From: a virus
Direction: 5' to 3' (one strand)
Length of the DNA stretch: 35,234 nt
IMG/VR virus record: IMGVR_UViG_3300032271_000366
Location: 1 to 35,234 of that record
How positions within the stretch are numbered: the stretch's first letter is position 1; every line of letters starts with the position of its first letter. The notes under the pieces are model-generated. The model saw only the letters and a list, made by a program, of their open reading frames with translations, did no database searches and was not told the origin of the DNA. Made by a program: the position numbers and the translations under genes. Shown in pieces: positions 2,185 through 34,314 of the stretch.

Positions 2185-4580
2185 TGAAAAAATACCTTTC
2201 AATATTACTTTTATTTTTCACACTTAGTTCTTTTGGACAATCGTGGACTAAGATAAGTGGCAGGTACGATAATCAATGGGCTTCATTTGATAGTGCTTTG
2301 TTTATTCCTACGGGATGCGGCACACCTTCGGGCGTTGCTTCGCTAAGGAACGCAGGTAAAACAAAGATGGCAGCAATGTATTGGGATAGCTGCAATCTAA
2401 GACTGTACGTTTTTCACCCCGTAGATAGCACATGGAAACAACCGGGTGCAGGGATTACTTTATTGAACGGATTGACAGGATCAACACAGACGTTTGCAAC
2501 GGGCAATTCGGGAACCAACTTCAATATCTCATCAAGCGGGACTACTCATACTTTTAATTTACCGGATGCAGGGGGAAGCAAAAGAGGGGCTTTAACTTCC
2601 GCAGACTGGATAAGATTTGACGGTAAACAAGACGCTATTACTTTAACCACTACCGGTTCAAGTGGCTCAGCAACCTTTACAAGTTCTACTTTAAACATAC
2701 CTACTTATACCTTATCCGGGCTTGGGGGTATTACAAGGGCTTCGCTAAGCGCAACGGCTCCTGTAAGTTATAATTCGAGTACGGGCGTTTTTAGTATGGC
2801 AGCGGCAACCGGTAGTGTAAATGGATATCTTACTTCAACTGATTGGACTACATTCAACAATAAGCAATCAACAATAACGCTAACCACAACGGGAAGTAGC
2901 GGAGCGGCCACTTTCACAAGTTCCACATTAAACATTCCCAATTATACACTATCAGGACTTGGCGGGATTGGGCTTTCGTCCTTATCCGCTTCGTCCCCAC
3001 TTTCATATAATAGCGGAACTGGTGCTTTCTCTATTCAGGTGTCAACATCCGCTCAAAACGGATACCTAAGTTCAACCGATTGGAATACATTTAATCGTAA
3101 GTTAGATAGTATTTCTCTTACTGCTACAAGCCCTTTGACTTATACAAGTTCTACTAAGACTTTGAGTACTAGTGTAACGGCTTCTCGTTTACTTGGCCGA
3201 TATACTAACAGTACAGGAGCAGCACAGGAGATAAAATTAGGAACAGGTCTTACTTTATCTAACGATACTTTATCGGCATCATCAAGCGGTGGTTCGCCCG
3301 GTGGAAGTACAACGCAAGTTCAGTATAATTCATCAGGAGCCTTCGCAGGTTCATCTAGTTTAACATGGGACAACAGCAATACTCGATTAAGCGTGGGAGG
3401 GACGGCAAGTCCAACGGGAACGTTAACGGTAAAAATGCCCGGTGCATTAAGCAGTTCAATAGGGATGACCATGAGAAACAGTGCTGACAATGCCGACCTT
3501 TATTCATTCCGAGGTAACGGTGATGAATATTATGCCGGCACATTATTTTCTTTGCACTCACAAGGATTGGGCAATACCACTTGGGGATACAATGCAGGGC
3601 AAGCGATTAATACCAACAGTACTCTAGGAACTTATGTAGGTCGAAATGCAGGTTATAGCACAACGTCAGGCGATGAAAATGTAATGATTGGATGGGGTGC
3701 AGGGTATCAAAATACCACAGCAGGAAACAACACCTATATAGGTGCTTTTGCTGCGCAAGCAAATGCAAGTATAGCAACTAAGGCTCAAAATGTATTCATT
3801 GGGGCAGAGGCGGGCTATAATAGCGCAGCGGATAATTCATGTTTTATTGGTTACCGGGCGGGCAACTATTCTTTAGGTTCATCCAATATGTATATAGGTC
3901 GCTCGGCAGGTGCGGGTGTGGTAACAACAAATACAGGGAGTAACAATAGTGCTATCGGATATAATGCTTTATCATCAGTAACAACGGGTAGTAATAATAT
4001 TGCCATTGGTACAAGTTCGGGAATCAATATAACAACAGGCGCACAAACAACCTTAATAGGTGCGGAATGTGTATCCAACGCTTCGGGCGGTACAACATCT
4101 AATGCGGTGTATGTGGGGTATCGTGCAGGATATAGTTCAACTGGTGATGACAATGCCATGATAGGCAGGTCGGCAGGGCAGAACAACACCACAGGATACG
4201 AAAATGTTTTTATTGGAAGGAATGCTTGTTCTACCAACACCACAGGCAGAGATATTACGATTGTAGGGGCTTTTGGTGATGTGAGCGCAGCAACGGGCAT
4301 CGCCAATGCAACGGGTATAGGTGCGAATGTGGTAGTAAGCCAAAGTAACTCGGTTATACTTGGCTCATCATGTAATGTGGGTATTGGAACCTCAACACCT
4401 AACGCATCTAGTAAGCTAGATGTAAACAGTACAACACAAGGTAGTAACCCTTTCCCACGTATGACATCAACACAAAGACTAGCCATTAGTTCTCCTGCAG
4501 TTGGGCTTCATGTTTATCAAACGGACGTTGTAGAGGGTGTGTACGTTTACAAATCAGGCGGTTGGGCATTCGCATATTAA
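2184..4580 (+). CDS. Large repeat-built tail fibre with N-terminal signal-like sequence
   Basis: A 798-residue fibre, likely receptor-binding. Residues 1-19 look like a Sec signal (two Lys, a Leu/Phe-rich core, then SSFGQ), unusual for a virion protein. Residues about 150-310 hold tandem ~79-residue units containing 'TLTTTGSSG', 'TSSTLNIP' and 'YTLSGLGGI'. Residues about 450-740 are dense short repeats of the type 'IG..AG..TTG..N..IG', as in trimeric beta-roll stalks of YadA-like adhesins. The C-terminus, about 735-798, reads 'SSKLDVNST...PRMTSTQRLAISSPAVGLHVYQTD', a frequent ending of Bacteroidota phage and surface fibres. Host adhesin origin is possible. The gene follows the baseplate operon and precedes the lysis genes. 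Confidence 0.8.
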   Translation: MKKYLSILLLFFTLSSFGQSWTKISGRYDNQWASFDSALFIPTGCGTPSGVASLRNAGKTKMAAMYWDSCNLRLYVFHPVDSTWKQPGAGITLLNGLTGSTQTFATGNSGTNFNISSSGTTHTFNLPDAGGSKRGALTSADWIRFDGKQDAITLTTTGSSGSATFTSSTLNIPTYTLSGLGGITRASLSATAPVSYNSSTGVFSMAAATGSVNGYLTSTDWTTFNNKQSTITLTTTGSSGAATFTSSTLNIPNYTLSGLGGIGLSSLSASSPLSYNSGTGAFSIQVSTSAQNGYLSSTDWNTFNRKLDSISLTATSPLTYTSSTKTLSTSVTASRLLGRYTNSTGAAQEIKLGTGLTLSNDTLSASSSGGSPGGSTTQVQYNSSGAFAGSSSLTWDNSNTRLSVGGTASPTGTLTVKMPGALSSSIGMTMRNSADNADLYSFRGNGDEYYAGTLFSLHSQGLGNTTWGYNAGQAINTNSTLGTYVGRNAGYSTTSGDENVMIGWGAGYQNTTAGNNTYIGAFAAQANASIATKAQNVFIGAEAGYNSAADNSCFIGYRAGNYSLGSSNMYIGRSAGAGVVTTNTGSNNSAIGYNALSSVTTGSNNIAIGTSSGINITTGAQTTLIGAECVSNASGGTTSNAVYVGYRAGYSSTGDDNAMIGRSAGQNNTTGYENVFIGRNACSTNTTGRDITIVGAFGDVSAATGIANATGIGANVVVSQSNSVILGSSCNVGIGTSTPNASSKLDVNSTTQGSNPFPRMTSTQRLAISSPAVGLHVYQTDVVEGVYVYKSGGWAFAY

Positions 4581-9651: not shown

Positions 9652-10449
9652 ATGAACTTCGATAACTACAAATTCAGAGCTTCCTGCGTTGGTAAGATAA
9701 TGACCAATGGAAGGGGTAAAGACGATATGGGAGAAACAGCCAAATCTTACCTAAAGCAAATCATCCGAGAGGTGCGATGGAAACGCCAAGAGGATATTGA
9801 CACTAAGCAGATGCGCAAGGGTAATGTGTGTGAACCTGAAAGTGAAACGCTGTACAATGTTTACAGGTATCTTAACAGGCGCAAACCCGCTTGTGGTGAG
9901 TTCAAAAAGAATGAGGTGAACTTGTCCAATGACTTCAACACGGGAACGCTTGACCTAACCAATACGAATAATTGGGAAACAGCAAAGGAAATCATTGATA
10001 TTAAAAGTTCATACGATTGGACTACGTTTCCTTACGCCAGCGATCCTGTTACAGGTATTTATGAATGGCAGCTACAAACCTACCTTAGCTTAGTGCCGAC
10101 TGCTAAAATTGCTATCCTTGCCCATTGCCTAGTGAATCTTGATGGCGATAGTTTTTTAGACGAGCAAAGGCGAATTGGTTTCAAGTGGAATGATCCGCAG
10201 TTAATGAGCGATGATGCAATTAAGGATTGCAAGAAACTTGAAAAACGATTTATCTACGATATACCGAAGTTTATTAAAGACAATCCTCATATTGAGATTT
10301 TCAGCGACATGGCTACGTTCCCTAATATCCCCGAAATAGAAAGGGTGAGGGAAGTAATCATTGAAAGGGATGATGCAGCTATTGAACGTATGCACGCCCG
10401 TGTAATCGAGTGCAGGAATTGGATGAACGAGAATTGGGATAAGGTGTAA
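9652..10449 (+). CDS. YqaJ/lambda-exonuclease-like recombination nuclease
   Basis: The 265-residue product carries a PD-(D/E)XK core: 'GTLDLTN' supplies the first acidic residue and 'EIIDIKSSYDW' the D-x-K pair (about residues 97-121), preceded by 'RKGNVCEPESETLY', which matches the 'G...E..a...y' helix of YqaJ nucleases. The N-terminal 'FRASCVGKIMTNGRG' is also typical. It would resect double-stranded ends to give substrate for the annealing protein encoded 1 nt upstream. The stop codon runs directly into a hairpin at 10449-10471. Confidence 0.85.
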   Translation: MNFDNYKFRASCVGKIMTNGRGKDDMGETAKSYLKQIIREVRWKRQEDIDTKQMRKGNVCEPESETLYNVYRYLNRRKPACGEFKKNEVNLSNDFNTGTLDLTNTNNWETAKEIIDIKSSYDWTTFPYASDPVTGIYEWQLQTYLSLVPTAKIAILAHCLVNLDGDSFLDEQRRIGFKWNDPQLMSDDAIKDCKKLEKRFIYDIPKFIKDNPHIEIFSDMATFPNIPEIERVREVIIERDDAAIERMHARVIECRNWMNENWDKV

Positions 10450-10471
10450 ACGGTGGAGGCTAAACGCCGTT
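10449..10471. repeat. Hairpin spacer 1 (AAC...GTT bounded)
   Basis: AACGGTG (10449-10455) pairs with CGCCGTT (10465-10471), one G-T pair included, around a 9-nt loop. It begins at the last base of the exonuclease stop codon and is followed by GGCGATTT, similar to the GCGATTT after the next spacer. It may be a degenerate relative of the attC-like element at 10969. The 10450-10514 interval contains nothing else. Confidence 0.4.
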
Positions 10472-10514
10472 GGCGATTTGGAACAGTAAATTATCAACTT
10501 AAAATAATGTAAAT

Positions 10515-10739
10515 ATGGAACACGAAAATTTGAATAAAGAAGAAACCGCCAATAGCGATTTAGGTGCTGTTATCGGCAGTTTATATCACGATATTTATTT
10601 ATTCAAAGTGAAAGACTACACAACTATTTTACTTGGAAGATACCACGATGGAAAATTCTACATTCAACGTGGGGATGGGGTAAAATACGAGTATGATGCA
10701 TACAGAGTTGTTTGGAAGCGGTTACTAAATTGCTGCTAA
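10515..10739 (+). CDS. Unknown small protein, 74 aa
   Basis: The product begins with an acidic 15-residue head and continues as a small beta-rich domain ('DYTTILLGRYHDGKFYIQRGDGVKYEYDAYRVVWKRL'), ending in a Cys pair. No family is recognised. It lies in a run of tiny ORFs, each followed at its stop codon by TAAC and a short palindrome, which suggests insertion as separate units rather than an old operon. Confidence 0.5.
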   Translation: MEHENLNKEETANSDLGAVIGSLYHDIYLFKVKDYTTILLGRYHDGKFYIQRGDGVKYEYDAYRVVWKRLLNCC

Positions 10740-10764
10740 CGTTTTGCAGGTTTATTTAGTTGCG
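10735..10764. repeat. Spacer 2 between tiny ORFs (degenerate attC-like)
   Basis: Directly at the stop codon the sequence reads CTGCTAACGTTTTGCAG, in which CTGC and GCAG pair. It is followed by TTTAGTTGCGATTT, so the interval is bounded by TAAC and GTTGCG. The same boundary pattern occurs at 10449 and 11283. On its own this would be weak evidence for an element. Confidence 0.35.
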
Positions 10765-10782
10765 ATTTAAAAACGAAAAATT

Positions 10783-10971
10783 ATGATAACAGAACAAAGT
10801 TACTTAGAAGCAAAAAAGATAGTTGAAACCTACGAAAGTAAGCAATTATTGAATAAACCTATTGTTATAAGACAAGTATGCACTATCGGAGGAGAATGTA
10901 AAGTTAGAGGTGAAAATAATGAATGTAAAGGAACTGCGTATTGTGGGTACAAAAAGCATACTTTCTTATAA
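10783..10971 (+). CDS. Small Cys-rich protein, 62 aa
   Basis: The N-terminal 30 residues are helical and charged. The C-terminal half has four cysteines in 'CTIGGEC...NECKGTAYC', which could bind one metal ion or form disulphides. No family is recognised. The stop codon overlaps the left outer box of the attC-like element at 10969, as seen in integron gene cassettes, where the recombination site follows the gene closely. Confidence 0.5.
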   Translation: MITEQSYLEAKKIVETYESKQLLNKPIVIRQVCTIGGECKVRGENNECKGTAYCGYKKHTFL

Positions 10972-11059
10972 CGGTCGGCAATATGAAACGGTTGCCTTGT
11001 AAGACGTTTCAAATTTACTAAACAGCCTGATGGCAACTGTTTTATATTGCTTGTTAGGC
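10969..11059. repeat. attC-like palindromic recombination-site candidate
   Basis: Left arm 10978-10996 pairs with right arm 11032-11050 over 19 positions (17 Watson-Crick, 2 G-T). The loop is 35 nt (10997-11031). Outside the stem, TAAC (10969-10972) faces GTTA (11053-11056), separated from the stem by 5 nt on the left and 2 nt on the right. The right box reads GTTAGGC, matching the integron R' consensus GTTRRRY. Outer AAC/GTT boxes, unequal spacers and a long imperfect stem are the layout of attC sites. The left box TTATAAC does not fit RYYYAAC fully. Confidence 0.6.
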
Positions 11060-11067
11060 ACAGTACT
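11053..11067. repeat. Inverted repeat flanking ORF 11076-11273, left copy
   Basis: GTTAGGCACAGTACT is the reverse complement of 11272-11286 in 14 of 15 positions. It overlaps the R'-like box of the attC-like element. In integron cassettes the first bases of a cassette are complementary to the R'' box after its own gene, which is what this pair shows. Confidence 0.6.
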
Positions 11068-11075
11068 TTATCAAA

Positions 11076-11273
11076 ATGACAAACAAAGAACGAAACTTAA
11101 TTAAAAAGAAAATACTTAAATGCTTAACCGAAGATTTTAAAGGCAATCAAGCGATATTTGATAAGAAACAGGGTTGGCAAGTGTTTAACGGAACTGATTT
11201 AGATATGGTTATGGATGCCGTATGTAAAGGTTTAGAAATGGCAAAATATGAGATGTGTGAAGGCGTTTCTTAG
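11076..11273 (+). CDS. Small cassette-borne protein, 65 aa
   Basis: The protein is basic and helical at the N-terminus ('NKERNLIKKKILKCLTEDF'), with a central Gly/Asp turn and a C-terminal amphipathic helix ('LDMVMDAVCKGLEMAKYEM'). No family is recognised. The gene is bracketed by 15-bp inverted repeats at 11053 and 11272 and preceded by an attC-like palindrome, so it looks like a single mobile gene cassette. A helical protein of this size could be a DNA-binding regulator, antitoxin or inhibitor; none of these is shown. Confidence 0.5.
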   Translation: MTNKERNLIKKKILKCLTEDFKGNQAIFDKKQGWQVFNGTDLDMVMDAVCKGLEMAKYEMCEGVS

Positions 11274-11286
11274 TATTGTGCCTAAC
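11272..11286. repeat. Inverted repeat flanking ORF 11076-11273, right copy
   Basis: AGTATTGTGCCTAAC starts within the stop codon of the cassette gene and contains GCCTAAC, an exact match to the integron R'' consensus RYYYAAC. It is followed by 17 nt and GTTTGCG (11304-11310), so the expected stem of a full site is missing or decayed. Confidence 0.55.
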
Positions 11287-11347
11287 TAGGGGCTAAGAAT
11301 GCAGTTTGCGTCCTTATACAAATAAAACAAAGGGATAGTAGAATATT

Positions 11348-11470
11348 ATGGAAAAAATGACCTACCGAGAATTTATTGAACTTTGCAAAGAATTAAGAAG
11401 GCTTCAAGAACTATGCAGAAAGCCAATGACGGTGTATGAAAAAAACAAAGCCAAGAAAGCAACAGCATAA
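11348..11470 (+). CDS. Tiny basic helical protein, 40 aa
   Basis: A 40-codon ORF with an A-rich leader just upstream. It encodes a charged helix ('REFIELCKELRRLQELCRK') with a Lys/Ala tail. It lies between the cassette region and the DnaA-like gene, in the same direction. Translation is plausible from the start context but not otherwise supported. Confidence 0.35.
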   Translation: MEKMTYREFIELCKELRRLQELCRKPMTVYEKNKAKKATA

Positions 11471-11505
11471 TTTGAAAAAGAATTTGATAAAAAATTGAAA
11501 GAACT

Positions 11506-11847
11506 ATGACACCCACAGAAATAATCAGAATGACCGCTACTATATGCGGAACTACTCCCGAAATGATAAGGAGTAAAAGTAGAAGAAACGGATCGGCTAA
11601 AAAAGCCACAGAAAAAGCAGTCTTTGCCCGGTGGTGCGTTTGGTTTATCATGTACCATTATTTAGGACTGCCAAAGAACGGTATATCATCGGCATTTGAT
11701 ATGCACCACGCTTCTATCATTCATGCACTAGGTACAAAATTTGACAAAGGGCAATTACTTAGGGATGCCGAAATGATCAAAGAACGAGGCATTTTACTTG
11801 CACGGGTAATTGAAGGATATTATTATCATCAGGCTATTGCGAGTTGA
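11506..11847 (+). CDS. DnaA domain IV-like DNA-binding protein
   Basis: The 113-residue protein resembles only the C-terminal origin-binding domain of DnaA. 'ARWCVWFIMYHYLGLPKNGISSAFDMHHASIIHA' corresponds to the helix-turn-helix and the signature D-H-T-T-V-x-H-A of DnaA, here HHASIIHA (residues about 41-75). 'EIIRMTATICGTTPEMIRSKSRR' matches the preceding DnaA segment ('v...f.i....l.gksR'). There is no AAA+ ATPase domain. It may bind the phage origin, or host DnaA boxes. It lies just upstream of the replication genes, and a promoter for them overlaps its last codons. Confidence 0.75.
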   Translation: MTPTEIIRMTATICGTTPEMIRSKSRRNGSAKKATEKAVFARWCVWFIMYHYLGLPKNGISSAFDMHHASIIHALGTKFDKGQLLRDAEMIKERGILLARVIEGYYYHQAIAS

Positions 11848-12175: not shown

Positions 12176-12788
12176 AGACCCCGCATTTTTGTTTTATCCA
12201 AACGATTGGGTTGGGGGAACTATGGGCATGACCTTTGAGCAGAAAGGGGCATACATGGAGTTGTTAATGGCTCAATTTAATCGTGGTCATATGACCACAG
12301 ATATGATAGCTCAATTAGTAGGTCAACATTGGGACATGATTAAGGTCAAATTTGTGCAGGACGAAAATGGACTATGGTATAATCAAAGGTTGGAATTAGA
12401 AAAAGAAAGAAGAAAAAATTATACACAATCTAGACTTAACAACCGTTCAGGCAGTAATCAACACACAAAGAAAAAGCCTAAAAAACAAGCTCATATAGGG
12501 GGTCATATGACCAATCATATGGAAAATGTAAATGTAGATGAAAATATAGATAATAAATGGTACAGAAAATTCCTTCACCTAAAAATCACCGAAGATGAAT
12601 TTAACGACCTGCTAAAACTTGGCTACTCAAAACAGCAGATTGATGATGTTTTGGATTCCATCGAGAACTACAAAAAAAACACTCAGTATACAAAATTATT
12701 CCTAACAGCTAAAAATTGGTTAAAAAGGGATGCAAAATTAACACCACAAACCATAACCTATGAACGCAAGCCGGGAATACGAGAGTAG
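12168..12788 (+). CDS. DUF1376-type phage replication protein
   Basis: The 206-residue protein begins '[20 protein letters not shown]' followed by '[13 protein letters not shown]', the hallmark of the DUF1376 (YdaU) winged-helix domain found in phage replication initiators. A basic, Asn-rich linker (about residues 85-125) leads to a C-terminal helical domain ending in '[12 protein letters not shown]', a pattern seen in primosomal DnaD/DnaT-like proteins. It probably recognises the origin or loads the helicase encoded directly downstream. Position and domain agree; the exact step is inferred. Confidence 0.75.
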
Positions 12789-14466: not shown

Positions 14467-15324
14467 ATGAAGAATTTACTTGTTAGCTTTTCAGGGGGAG
14501 AAACATCAGCGTTTATGGCTCAATGGTTAAAAAAACATTATAGGGAATTTGGCTATGAAAACATTGTTTTTGTATTTGCAAATACAGGACTTGAAAACGA
14601 ACAGACTTTAGAATTTGTTGAAAGGTGTGATACTTATTTCGGCTTAAAATTGCATTGGGTGGAGGCTTTAGTTTGGCAAGGAGAGAGAAGGGGAACAGGA
14701 TATACCATAACCGACTTTGAACACGCTAAACGCAAAGGAGAACCATTTGAAGCTGTTATACAGAAATACGGAATACCGAACCAAGCTACACCACATTGCA
14801 CAAGAGAATTAAAGCAAGCACCAATAAATTCATTTGCAAAAGTTTGGTTTAATGATGAGGCTTATCATACGGCTATTGGAATTAGAAAAGATGAAATTGA
14901 TAGGATGAATGCAAGAGCCAAAGAAATGGGGTTTATTTATCCGCTTATAAATAGCAAAATGATACCTTCAAATAAACCAATGGTAAATATCTTTTGGCGT
15001 CAAATGCCTTTTAGATTAGAGTTAAAAGGATATCAAGGAAACTGCAAGACTTGCTGGAAAAAGTCAGACAGAAAACTTTATCAAATTGCAAAAGAAAATA
15101 CATCAGCATTTGATTTTATGAATGAAATGGAACAGAAATATCCGACTGACCCAATGGGATACAATAAGGTGTTTTTTAGAAATAATCGAAGCGCAAAGCA
15201 GATAATCGAAGAAGCAAAGAATTGGAAAGGAAGAATTAAAAACGATGCCGATGAATATACTTATCAACTAGATTTACTTGGCGGTGAAAGTTGCGAAGTA
15301 TTTTCAGAATGTAGTAACAATTAA
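14467..15324 (+). CDS. PAPS-reductase-like PP-loop enzyme
   Basis: The 285-residue enzyme belongs to the adenine-nucleotide alpha-hydrolase fold. The PP-loop is 'SFSGGETSAFMA' (about residues 7-18), 'FANTGLENEQTLEF' follows, and 'HCTRELK' (about 117-123) corresponds to the C-T-x-x-K region of PAPS reductases. A Cys pair in 'GNCKTCWKKS' (about 196) may bind metal. Such enzymes activate a substrate with ATP for sulphate reduction, tRNA thiolation or DNA phosphorothioation (DndC). In phages the role is usually unproven. Nearby genes for a DNA-type glycosyltransferase and its partner make a DNA-modification role attractive, but that is inference. Confidence 0.75.
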   Translation: MKNLLVSFSGGETSAFMAQWLKKHYREFGYENIVFVFANTGLENEQTLEFVERCDTYFGLKLHWVEALVWQGERRGTGYTITDFEHAKRKGEPFEAVIQKYGIPNQATPHCTRELKQAPINSFAKVWFNDEAYHTAIGIRKDEIDRMNARAKEMGFIYPLINSKMIPSNKPMVNIFWRQMPFRLELKGYQGNCKTCWKKSDRKLYQIAKENTSAFDFMNEMEQKYPTDPMGYNKVFFRNNRSAKQIIEEAKNWKGRIKNDADEYTYQLDLLGGESCEVFSECSNN

Positions 15325-15726: not shown

Positions 15727-16121
15727 AGCAAGTAAATTTATTTGGGGGAGAATTTGACCCAAGCAAAAATGAACAAAAATATTCAACCAAGATTGAAGCC
15801 CCTATTTATGAGCCTAAAAACGTAAAGCCGCATTTAATAGAACTTTGCGACAAAAGCAAAACTCATAGATTAATGAGGGAAATTGATATGTCTAATTTGC
15901 CTATTGAAGAAAAGAACTTTTTAATGGATGCAGCAAGAAGGCACAATGTTTTTAACTATGAGAAGGTTGCTGATTACTATGCTCACGCTACACCCGAAAT
16001 GCAACAATTAATGGAAAGAAGCGGATTGGTAATTATAGACTTTGAAAAGGCTGTTGAATATGGATATATTAAATTATGTGATGAAATAAAAACTCAATAC
16101 CTTACAGAATATGGAGAATAA
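15723..16121 (+). CDS. Conserved partner of the glycosyltransferase, 132 aa
   Basis: The N-terminus 'QVNLFGGEFDPSKNE' is followed by 'PIYEPKNVKPHLIELCDKSKT', 'AARRHNVFNYEKVADYYAHATPEMQQLMERSGLVIIDF' (in parts) and 'VEYGYIKL'. I recall this same sequence pattern directly upstream of the type of glycosyltransferase encoded next, in phages and prophages, though I cannot check that here. The helical 'RHNVFNY...DYYAHA' segment is the likely core. The gene overlaps the transferase by 11 nt. It may present the DNA substrate or be part of a complex. No catalytic motif is visible. Confidence 0.65.
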   Translation: MKQVNLFGGEFDPSKNEQKYSTKIEAPIYEPKNVKPHLIELCDKSKTHRLMREIDMSNLPIEEKNFLMDAARRHNVFNYEKVADYYAHATPEMQQLMERSGLVIIDFEKAVEYGYIKLCDEIKTQYLTEYGE

Positions 16122-16962
16122 AGATTTTGCAATATTTATTATGGTGTATGGAAGACCTGATAAGAACCTAACATACAATACTCTACTAAAATGCGGATAT
16201 ACGGGCAAAGTGTATTTTGTAGGCGATGATACCGATAGTGAAATTGATGGCTACAAAAAACTGTATGGTGATGATTTATTAATTTTTGATAAAAAAGAAG
16301 TTGCTAAAAAATACGATAGCGGTGATAATAGCGGAGATTTAAGAAGCACAATGTTTGCCGCAAATACAATTTTTGATTTAGCTGAACAAAAAGGAATTGA
16401 ATATTTCTATATAATGTGTGATGATTATTACGAGTTTGACTATATGTTTAAAGACGAAATAAAGGGGATGAAATTATGTAGGAATATTGATAAAGTATTT
16501 GACTTGACCATTAATTTTTTTAAGACTACAAAAGCATTATCAATAGCATTTGCCCAAACAGGTGATTTTATTGGTGGAATAGATAATGGTAAAGGTGTTT
16601 ACAGATTTAGTAAAAGGAAAGCTATGAATAGTTTTTTATGTAGCACAAAAAGAAGATTTGAATTTTTGGGAAGAATGAATGAAGATGTAACGACCTATAT
16701 TAATTTAGGAACAAAAGGAGAATTATTTTTAACTATTCCAGTTTTTGCTGTAAACCAAAAAGATACTCAGCAAGTTAAAAAAGGACTTACTGAAATGTAT
16801 GTTGATAATGGAACTTATATCAAGTCTATGTTTTCAGTTATTTACAATCCTTCTTGTGTTAAAGCATCAATAATGAATGCTTCGCACAAAAGAATACATC
16901 ATTCTATAAAATGGATAAATACAACCCCTATGATAATTAGTGAAAAGTATAAAAAGTATTAG
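16111..16962 (+). CDS. TET-associated-type glycosyltransferase (TAGT-like)
   Basis: The 283-residue protein has a GT-A type nucleotide-sugar fold. It starts 'FAIFIMVYGRPDKNLTYNTLLKCGYTGKVYFVGDD', here described in sections, and has a DxD-like metal motif 'MCDDYYEF' (about residues 102-109), 'SIAFAQTGDFIGG', 'KRKAMNSFLCSTKRRFEFLGRMNEDV' in parts and 'DNGTYIKSMFSVIYNPSCVK'. This set is what I associate with TAGT proteins, which add sugars to modified DNA bases. No TET/JBP oxygenase or hydroxymethylase is present in this genome, so the acceptor is uncertain. It is more AT-rich than the structural genes, which hints at transfer. Confidence 0.7.
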   Translation: MENKDFAIFIMVYGRPDKNLTYNTLLKCGYTGKVYFVGDDTDSEIDGYKKLYGDDLLIFDKKEVAKKYDSGDNSGDLRSTMFAANTIFDLAEQKGIEYFYIMCDDYYEFDYMFKDEIKGMKLCRNIDKVFDLTINFFKTTKALSIAFAQTGDFIGGIDNGKGVYRFSKRKAMNSFLCSTKRRFEFLGRMNEDVTTYINLGTKGELFLTIPVFAVNQKDTQQVKKGLTEMYVDNGTYIKSMFSVIYNPSCVKASIMNASHKRIHHSIKWINTTPMIISEKYKKY

Positions 16963-32704: not shown

Positions 32705-34314
32705 TGGACGATAAGACTCTAGAATATGTACTACTATTAAAGGATGAAATGTCGGGCAAGTTGGCCGATGTTGAAAAGCACGTACAGGGATTAGACAATA
32801 AAATAAAGGGAGTACACAAGGGCGCCCACGAATCCGCTGTTGGGGGCATAAAGGAAATGGTTACGGGCTTTATGGAATTGGCTGTGGTGGAGAAGGCTGT
32901 GGAATTTATAGGCGAGTTTTTAAATAGTTCCAAAGAAGCATACAACGAATCGGCACAGGCATGCGCACAGCTTAACGCTACGATGGAAGCCACGCATAAT
33001 ATTGCCAATCTAAATAGAGAAGCATTAGACGCACAATCAGCCGCTTTAATGCGCACTACCTTATTTGACGATGATGATATCACCCGGGCGCAATCCGTAC
33101 TAGGTACGTTCACATCTATTAAAGACAAGGTTTATATGGATGCTATTCCTGCCATCACGGATTTAGCTACTAAGATGGGAGGCGATTTGCAAGGGGCAAC
33201 GGTTCAGATTGGCAAGGCTTTGAATGACCCAATACAAGGTATGAATGCGCTTAGGCGTGTGGGGGTATCGTTTAGCGATAATCAAAAGGTAGTAATCAAA
33301 AGGCTTCAGGAAACAGGCCACCTAGCCGAGGCGCAAGCTATAATCTTAAAGGAATTGCAAACAGAGTTTGGCAATTCAGCTAAGGCAGCAGCAGAGGCAG
33401 GAACAGGTGCGCTCATAGTAATGCAGCACAGGTTCCAAAATATTAAGGAGGTTATAGGCGAAGGCGTAGTAAGTATGCAAGTGTTCGGGGCAAAGGCTGT
33501 CGAAACATTCATAAGTAAAAATTACGGCATTACCTTTGAAAGGGTAGAGGAATTTCTAAAAGAAAAGCTACCTATTGCGCTTGTGTATATGCAAAAGGCG
33601 GTTGGTGCTGTTTTGGCCTTTATCGCTCCTATTGCGCAGGTTATCTTTGCTAACTTCCACGCTACGCATGCGGCGGTGAAAAGGGTATTTGACACTCTAA
33701 AAAGTTTCGGGGGAAGCGGTATAAACATATTCTCCATACTCGGAAAAGTCGTAGGTTTTTTGTTGGATAAAATGTTTTTTATAGCTGTTGCTCTATACAC
33801 GGCCATAAGTTATTTAGTTCAATTTTATGGGATGTGGCTTCACATCATCAAGAAAGTGTCTGACTTCGTTGGAATTACGGCTGTGATAAAAGATGCTTGG
33901 AATTTGCTTACACAAGCTTTCCAATGGACGTATGAGAATGTTATACAGCCTATGATTGCAGGATTAAAAGAGGCAGGCGATTGGCTTAGTAAGTTAGCGG
34001 GAACAGATACAACGGTAACGGTCAATAAAGAGGAGGGCAAGCAAGAAAAAAGCTGGCTTGATGGATTGCTTGGCGAAGGCGGGGCGAAAGTTCCTGCGGT
34101 GGATGGATTGGGTAAGGACATAGCACCTATGGCAACGGGAAGTAAAGCAACGGGAACAAAAGCCACCACTATAAATATTACCATCGAGAATTTGGGTAAA
34201 GAAATCACCATCCAAACCACGAATTTAAAGGAAGGCACAGCGCAGGTGAAAAACATGATTAGTAATATGTTAGCAGAGGCGGTCAATGATTCTCAAATCT
34301 TAATCGGACACTAA
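32704..34314 (+). CDS. Tape measure protein
   Basis: The 536-residue protein sets the tail length and is passed into the tube lumen. It is largely helical with coiled coils at the N-terminus, a TMP-type segment 'IQIGKALNDPIQGMNALRRVGVSFSD' in parts (about residues 160-190), several hydrophobic stretches at about 290-390 ('VGAVLAFIAPIAQVIFANFH', 'FIAVALYTAISYLVQFYG'), and a Lys/Gly-rich C-terminal linker. At about 0.15 nm per residue the tail would be near 80 nm. It overlaps the frameshifted chaperone stop and shares a base with the next gene. Confidence 0.88.
   Translation: MDDKTLEYVLLLKDEMSGKLADVEKHVQGLDNKIKGVHKGAHESAVGGIKEMVTGFMELAVVEKAVEFIGEFLNSSKEAYNESAQACAQLNATMEATHNIANLNREALDAQSAALMRTTLFDDDDITRAQSVLGTFTSIKDKVYMDAIPAITDLATKMGGDLQGATVQIGKALNDPIQGMNALRRVGVSFSDNQKVVIKRLQETGHLAEAQAIILKELQTEFGNSAKAAAEAGTGALIVMQHRFQNIKEVIGEGVVSMQVFGAKAVETFISKNYGITFERVEEFLKEKLPIALVYMQKAVGAVLAFIAPIAQVIFANFHATHAAVKRVFDTLKSFGGSGINIFSILGKVVGFLLDKMFFIAVALYTAISYLVQFYGMWLHIIKKVSDFVGITAVIKDAWNLLTQAFQWTYENVIQPMIAGLKEAGDWLSKLAGTDTTVTVNKEEGKQEKSWLDGLLGEGGAKVPAVDGLGKDIAPMATGSKATGTKATTINITIENLGKEITIQTTNLKEGTAQVKNMISNMLAEAVNDSQILIGH

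Follow-up and report, generated by a model that had tools for sequence, protein, structure and literature searches.

Integron-type gene cassettes in a tailed-phage contig and relatives of them beside a phage-encoded tyrosine recombinase

The closest described counterparts of the locus analyzed here are groups of at least two attC sites with no integrase nearby (CALIN) in virulent phages, e.g. Polaribacter phage P12002L. Seventeen such integrase-less clusters are reported in the available text of PMC9892861, where IntI1 recombined five of six tested phage attC sites, two of the six being from P12002L. That text describes the clusters and the activity of IntI1, and its available part contains no reversed gene polarity, no start codons in the hairpin loop and neither an own recombinase nor an attI. 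In the literature searched, which left out most subscription journals and all of bioRxiv, nothing turned up on phage cassettes of reversed orientation, on start codons located in attC loops or on the recombinase clade described below. Few complete integrons exist in Bacteroidetes according to the available text of PMC9024848. Canonical IntI enzymes (profile TIGR02249; VchIntIA, structure 2A3V) are tyrosine recombinases encoded where an attC array meets its attI. The genes of Treponema integrons precede their attC. The integrase of these chromosomal integrons is inverted and, like that of the phages treated below, co-directional with the cassette genes (PMC3607928, available text).

The window, i.e. 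the whole stretch of DNA analyzed, is an IMG/VR record of 35,234 bases from a tailed phage and resembles the virulent-phage CALINs in its attC-type hairpins, its small genes and the lack of an integrase. The original prediction called phage-borne cassettes without an integrase rarely reported; 17 such clusters are already published. Tailed-phage genes in the window encode a RecT-like annealing protein, an exonuclease, a DnaB-like helicase, terminase, portal, tail sheath and tape measure; the host phylum is probably Bacteroidota. The genes of the RecT-type annealing protein and the exonuclease lie directly 5' of the cassette cluster, and the stop codon of the exonuclease gene (9652-10449) is overlapped by the R'' of the first attC-type site. 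No integrase was detected in the record using the TIGR02249 profile and, over all six frames, a second profile termed A2, so that the window with its three sites is an integrase-less cluster. An attI-like motif was not found in the window, and the record may be a fragment. A tRNA search and an Rfam scan of the window gave no match, and blastn of positions 10500-11600 against named phages gave short chance matches only. No clean empty site was found; the close relative L100 has diverged at the position of the cluster.

Some further features of the record were noted. The small protein adjoining the cassettes (11506-11847) has a DnaA C-terminal-like domain (PF08299, E 2.4e-6, below the cut-off). 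A TET-associated glycosyltransferase (PF20691, E 1.7e-27), which is a possible hint of DNA hypermodification, is encoded at 16111-16962 in a stretch of 29% GC. A PAPS-reductase-like gene is located at 14467-15324, and the same Pfam family occurs as cassette cargo in another contig (L337, 233-1111). The palindromic sequence GGTCATATGACC is found twice in the primosomal-protein gene (12284-12306 and 12491-12513, 184 nt apart); the copies are perhaps origin repeats.

Three attC-type sites and three cassettes were delineated (Table 1). The original prediction, made from the palindrome of site 3, spoke of at least one and perhaps three captured genes: the number three stands. That the two preceding ORFs, which contain their R' boxes, are cassettes too had been missed. 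An attC site is an imperfect palindrome between the inverse core RYYYAAC and the core GTTRRRY. Site 3 corresponds to this description, with a real imperfect stem flanked by TATAAC (ending at 10972) and GTTAGGC at unequal spacers of 3 and 0 nt; palindrome and R' fit, and R'' (TTATAAC) departs from RYYYAAC at its first base. The GTTRRRY rule fits the R' of cassette 3 only, those of cassettes 1 and 2 being GTTATCG and GTTATAA. Folded as single-stranded DNA, as had been proposed, site 3 reached -16.2 kcal/mol on the + strand and -12.6 on the - strand, compared to a mean of -8.8 (sd 2.4) for shuffled + strand sequences, of which one in 200 was as good. Its arm score was attained by 8 of 20,000 random places of the window with the same spacing. 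With the unbiased finder, site 1 had an arm score of 24 (8 of 20,000 random places equally good), and site 2 was weak on its own (309 of 20,000). The unguided arm-pairing script recovered hairpins 1 and 3, with the best own-end partners exactly at 10740 and 11286, and hairpin 2 only weakly.

In an integron cassette, the first core is complementary to the last inverse core of the same cassette, and this relation was found for all three. The ends of the unit 11053-11286 pair at 14 of 15 bases, as had been read from the sequence originally (14/16 over 16-mers), those of cassette 1 (10569 and 10740) at 12/16, and those of cassette 2 (10864-10880 and 10957-10972) throughout with the exception of one bulged base. 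Pairing of 14/16 occurs with a frequency of 2.5e-5 among random GTT/AAC 16-mer pairs of the window. A free search for end pairs over the whole 35 kb returned four chance pairs of 13/16, with five in the reversed control and 0-5 in Markov copies. End pairing alone is therefore not unusual for 35 kb, and the case had to rest on relatives and homologous loci. Past the last R'' (11287..11347, + strand), neither a second hairpin nor an attI-like motif was present; the cluster either finishes or is truncated there. For the product of ORF 11076-11273, the AlphaFold model has a mean pLDDT of 79 with two helices and a low-confidence middle. This product had no fold relative in BFVD at E ≤ 0.001, and the ORF had no match in named phages and plasmids.

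Table 1. Positions of the attC-type sites and cassettes in the window.
Feature	Position	Strand	Details
attC-type site 1	10444..10576	+	R'' end 10451; arms 10458-10479 / 10546-10568; R' from 10569
Cassette 1	10452..10740	+	hairpin 1 and ORF 10515-10739 (74 aa)
attC-type site 2	10733..10871	+	R'' end 10740; arms 10742-10764 / 10842-10863; R' from 10864
Cassette 2	10741..10972	+	hairpin 2 and ORF 10783-10971 (62 aa)
attC-type site 3 (palindrome of the original prediction), short class	10965..11060	+	arms 10976-10996 / 11032-11052
Cassette 3	10973..11286	+	hairpin 3 and ORF 11076-11273 (65 aa); ends GTTAGGCACAGTACT 11053, AGTATTGTGCCTAAC 11286

A covariance model, R1, was built from 44 aligned sites of 111-121 nt taken from phages and Bacteroidota chromosomes. 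In its 24-pair structure, 90.4% of the cells were paired and 202 cells were changed on both sides, and the covariation score was 0.528 vs. 0.051-0.115 when slid; the covariation is partly built in, because the sites were picked for arm complementarity. Features not selected for were a G.U pair at columns 31/121 (38 of 44 sites) and a mismatch at columns 19/131 (25 of 44). Site 2, which is absent from the training set, was matched by R1 with 50.0 bits (E 1.9e-8), whereas the 83.7 bits of site 1 come from one of the 44 training rows; site 3 was not matched. Similar sites do occur elsewhere, as the original prediction required: R1, with no more than 11 candidates scored in each genome, had matches in at least 150 of 296 Bacteroidota genomes, their phylum being read from one locus (L089), and in 0 of 149 genomes of another phylum, namely that of the genome containing locus L090.

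Relatives of ORF 11076-11273 were identified in seven other viral contigs (L082-L088) and in one Sphingobacteriales contig (L089). In each of the seven viral contigs, the gene is located between a box starting with GTT and a box ending with AAC, which are mutually complementary and vary in sequence between contigs (GTTAGGCACAGTACT / AGTATTGTGCCTAAC, GTTGGGCGCAGTACT / TAGTATTGCGCCCAAC and GTTAGCTTTTAGTAC / AGTATTAAAGCTAAC). The hairpins 5' of the gene vary too, with compensating changes (L086 vs. L087). Thus, palindromes and matching ends accompany the ORF in 7 of 7 viral contigs, and a related phage with the ORF and without palindromes was not among them. The sites around the relative in L088 resemble, by eye, ordinary proteobacterial attC; this relative of the 65-aa ORF is located at 4001-4240 of an 82 kb viral contig. 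A relative from Bacilli (L090) had no attC-like ends by eye and no R1 match in its genome; hence, the gene is not confined to cassettes. Relatives of ORF 10515-10739 (L144-L147) were used to place the R' within the ORF and the start codon within the preceding hairpin. The viral contigs are predictions and some may be host fragments; phage genes lie beside the arrays in several of them.

Fifty records were searched with TIGR02249, and a match was obtained in 10, above the cut-off in none. In the six records that were opened, among them that of L082 with the relative of cassette 3, a tyrosine recombinase gene of 264-287 aa starts just past the array on the same strand. When loci were collected from the recombinase alone, 63 of 79 had R1 sites (63 of 69 with ≥ 600 nt upstream, 53 of 59 without exact copies), and an R1 match was missing at 6 of the 69. 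All 217 R1 matches of this set lay upstream on the strand of the recombinase and none in 422 kb downstream; the contigs with matches measure up to 281 kb. The motif AAC-N3..6-ATAT was present within 200 nt of the recombinase gene in 60 of 62 distinct upstream regions vs. 410 of 2,758 control windows, the pattern being tuned on the same set (the first version found 25 of 62 and was then loosened). In 30 of 52 cases, the AAC of the motif is the own R'' of the last cassette. By association, therefore, the arrays of related phages end at a conserved attI-like motif just 5' of a short tyrosine recombinase gene; the motif sits where attI should be and is a putative attI. Exceptions were L430, where the recombinase is on the opposite side, L437 and L438, which lack an R1 match, and L334 and L348, which lack the attI motif. 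In one phage contig (L303 / L314), over 20 R1 matches precede the recombinase and a GroEL gene.

The phage enzymes, like canonical IntI, are tyrosine recombinases next to the attI, here putative, of an attC array, but they score below the TIGR02249 cut-off (0 of 50 above), lack the extra segment and fall outside the IntI clade. The distance from KDR to HxLRH was 53-61 aa in the phage enzymes vs. 100 in IntI, i.e. the extra segment is absent; the motif pattern matched 7 of 14 IntI and 1 of 8 Xer rows, and an IntI value of -129 is a false match. The solved IntI structure 2A3V aligns in two pieces. In a tree of 63 of 96 recombinases, for which phage rows were thinned and three short rows dropped, IntI and Xer each formed a 100/100 clade with the phage enzymes outside both, and the deeper order was weak. 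Profile A2 gave 269-416 bits for the phage enzymes (five of which trained it), 235-331 for array-linked chromosomal relatives, 160-177 for Xer and ≤ 156 for IntI, the groups being separated by bit scores only. Since Xer proteins score too, A2 at E ≤ 1e-25 matches 270 of 296 genomes. Bacteroidota chromosomal arrays share with the phages the R1 hairpin family and a related recombinase beside the array: R1 matches were found in 18 of 20 chromosomal regions with such a recombinase, most of the 20 having been chosen for that nearness. Large chromosomal arrays of R1 type with ordinary gene orientation and a recombinase that had gone unrecognised were seen at L159-L173 and L424-L443.

The layout of the phage arrays with recombinase is shown also by a cultured phage. 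Polaribacter phage Leef_1 (MT732473) encodes an A2-type integrase, Leef1_38 (225 bits), and has three weak R1 matches (23.8-33.3 bits) as well as two hairpins upstream of Leef1_38 on the same strand, whose own ends pair at 14/16 and 15/16. This integrase has been taken to indicate a temperate phage (PMC8776804, available text), and the words 'integron' and 'cassette' are absent from the main text of that source as available. In Cellulophaga phage Ingeline_1, a related integrase scored 208 bits, and R1 gave no match.

Among the alternatives, placement of the cassettes by an ordinary IntI of the host, as proposed for the known phage CALINs, with the phage recombinase as a bystander, survives best. 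TIGR02249 exceeded its cut-off in 84 of the 296 Bacteroidota genomes, and the IntI1 activity on phage attC sites cited above (PMC9892861) speaks for such a route. P12002L (KR136259) has the start-in-hairpin layout: P12002L_0042 starts within the hairpin of an R1 match at 32793-32929 (- strand), a site that may differ from those tested in PMC9892861. Profile A2 detected no recombinase of the phage-array kind in P12002L. However, 20 sampled bona fide intI regions contained a single weak R1 match under E 0.001 (L248, 33.5 bits), and the phage arrays keep to a fixed side and strand of a recombinase that is not IntI. We regard a host IntI as a rather unlikely source. A Bacteroidota IntI (TIGR02249) as the enzyme serving the arrays was rejected as a candidate, the sampled intI regions carrying other attC types.

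The boundaries of the mobile unit were determined from units common to different contigs. Cassette 3 aligns with L082 at 93.4%, from -4 to 0 relative to two YAAC ends, and with L083 at 84.8%, from -6 to 0, the flanks being different in both cases. Among the relatives of cassette 1 (L145, L147), similarity with L147 stops at R''. The L267/L291 unit is 100% identical over 287 nt and the L267/L304 units over 339 and 331 nt, the latter contigs having common cassettes in different order; L265/L306 share a unit at 98.4% and L288/L295 one at 94.3%. In common units, the alignment begins at about -4 relative to the first AAC end, stops at 0..+3 relative to the next one and includes the hairpin, so the hairpin 5' of a gene moves with that gene. 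As judged by this comparison, with the same units in different contigs and joints at YAAC, the cassettes appear to move as discrete units between positions. Own ends matched in 69 of 112 viral sites vs. 33 of 1,025 random GTT[AG] positions. That integron-type cassettes exist in a phage whose record has no integrase is borne out by this recurrence between contigs, while the pairing of a gene with the hairpin following it, assumed originally, had the wrong polarity: hairpin and downstream gene move together. The idea that the hairpin 3' of a gene belongs to that gene, with the N-terminal leader swapped at each insertion, was ruled out by the unit boundaries.

Ordinary phage mosaicism, in which RecT-type homologous recombination acts at short common palindromes with no site-specific enzyme, could draw on the annealing protein and exonuclease encoded directly 5' of the cluster, but is improbable given breakpoints within a few bases of YAAC in independent pairs, end pairing that is specific to a cassette and not common to its neighbours, and arrays polarised toward the recombinase.

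Integron-type cassettes, the preferred reading, have an unusual orientation in this window. Its genes oppose the ordinary cassette direction, each with its hairpin 5' and travelling with it. Around canonical intI genes, attC has the polarity of R1 read backwards, and genes of Bacteroidota chromosomal arrays follow that polarity. At the 53 best-scoring of 76 chromosomal matches, a forward gene was present once and a reverse ORF of ≥ 300 nt ending at the site 39 times. In viral contigs, retrieved with the same sequence pattern, the gene was forward at 99 of 113 sites, with no forward-gene evidence at 14; the 113 are distinct sites out of 152 matches, from which cut-off matches, some weaker matches and duplicate contigs had been removed. 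The recombinase-first set gave a forward gene at 99 of 116 sites and no forward-gene evidence at 17; these are distinct sites above about 50 bits out of the 217 R1 matches, near-copies left out. The usual order, gene then attC, is thus that of the chromosomes and is reversed in the phages. Chromosomal cassettes are also larger, the median own-end distance being 1,438 nt in Bacteroidota chromosomes vs. 209 nt in viral contigs. Treponema integrons differ from the phage arrays in using IntI; in the latter, both the cassette gene and the recombinase run opposite to attC polarity.

The start codon is within the hairpin loop in two of the three window cassettes (1 and 2). At 77 of the 113 viral sites, a loop ATG was followed by a frame open for ≥ 30 codons beyond R'. 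In the recombinase-first set, the start was in the loop at 71 of 116 sites with the frame passing through the arm, and at 42 others shortly past R'; loop starts occurred at 68 of 99 long and 3 of 17 short sites. The commonest stops of loop-started ORFs lie 13, 1 and 11 nt before their own R'' end, a boundary that was not used for selection. Leaders of unrelated genes are alike, e.g. beginning with MLENENLNE or MLENENMNE. Ten larger cargo products were scanned and comprised three DNA methyltransferases, a PAPS-reductase-like and an exoribonuclease-like protein; the other five had no Pfam match. A role of the palindromes restricted to transcription termination or to mRNA structure between the small genes is hardly credible, for although they fold and sit at stop codons, they have no T run, contain start codons whose frames run through the arm (71 of 116), have cassette-specifically pairing distant ends and move with the gene as a unit.

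Taken together, the stem, spacers, ORF borders and end pairing described in the original prediction are confirmed, its integron interpretation is partly supported, and two observations go beyond it: two of the three genes start in the loop, and relatives of the cassettes adjoin a phage-encoded recombinase. The explanation that we consider best, at a probability of roughly 0.8, is a cluster of three integron-type cassettes carried by a Bacteroidota phage whose record has no integrase. The hairpin, the matching ends, the polarity, the unit boundaries and identical units in different contigs were observed. The mobile unit extends from YAAC|G to the next YAAC|G and consists of an attC-type hairpin followed by a small reversed gene. 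The hairpin probably has a dual role, its single-stranded DNA form being the recombination site and its loop giving start codon and N-terminal leader. From the position of the recombinase beside the arrays, we infer that it moves the cassettes; those of the window would owe their position to such an enzyme, either that of another phage or one that has since disappeared.

These results suggest that related phages exchange small genes by a system of their own. It is fairly probable that Bacteroidota phages, including jumbo phages, possess a self-contained integron. It would comprise an attI, a dedicated recombinase clade distinct from both IntI and Xer, and arrays of miniature reversed cassettes in which attC doubles as recombination site and start of translation, a start codon and a leader peptide coming with each gene; the phage of the window would then hold cassettes from such systems. 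Leef_1 is cultured and its host is named, so that the idea is directly testable. If true, this would be an integron system that escapes searches with IntI profiles, and it would offer one answer to the question of how promoterless cassettes are expressed, in that the recombination site brings the start codon. Phages would have a platform for gene capture and shuffling of their own, independent of host integrons, and small genes and DNA methyltransferases would be cargo exchangeable between phages.
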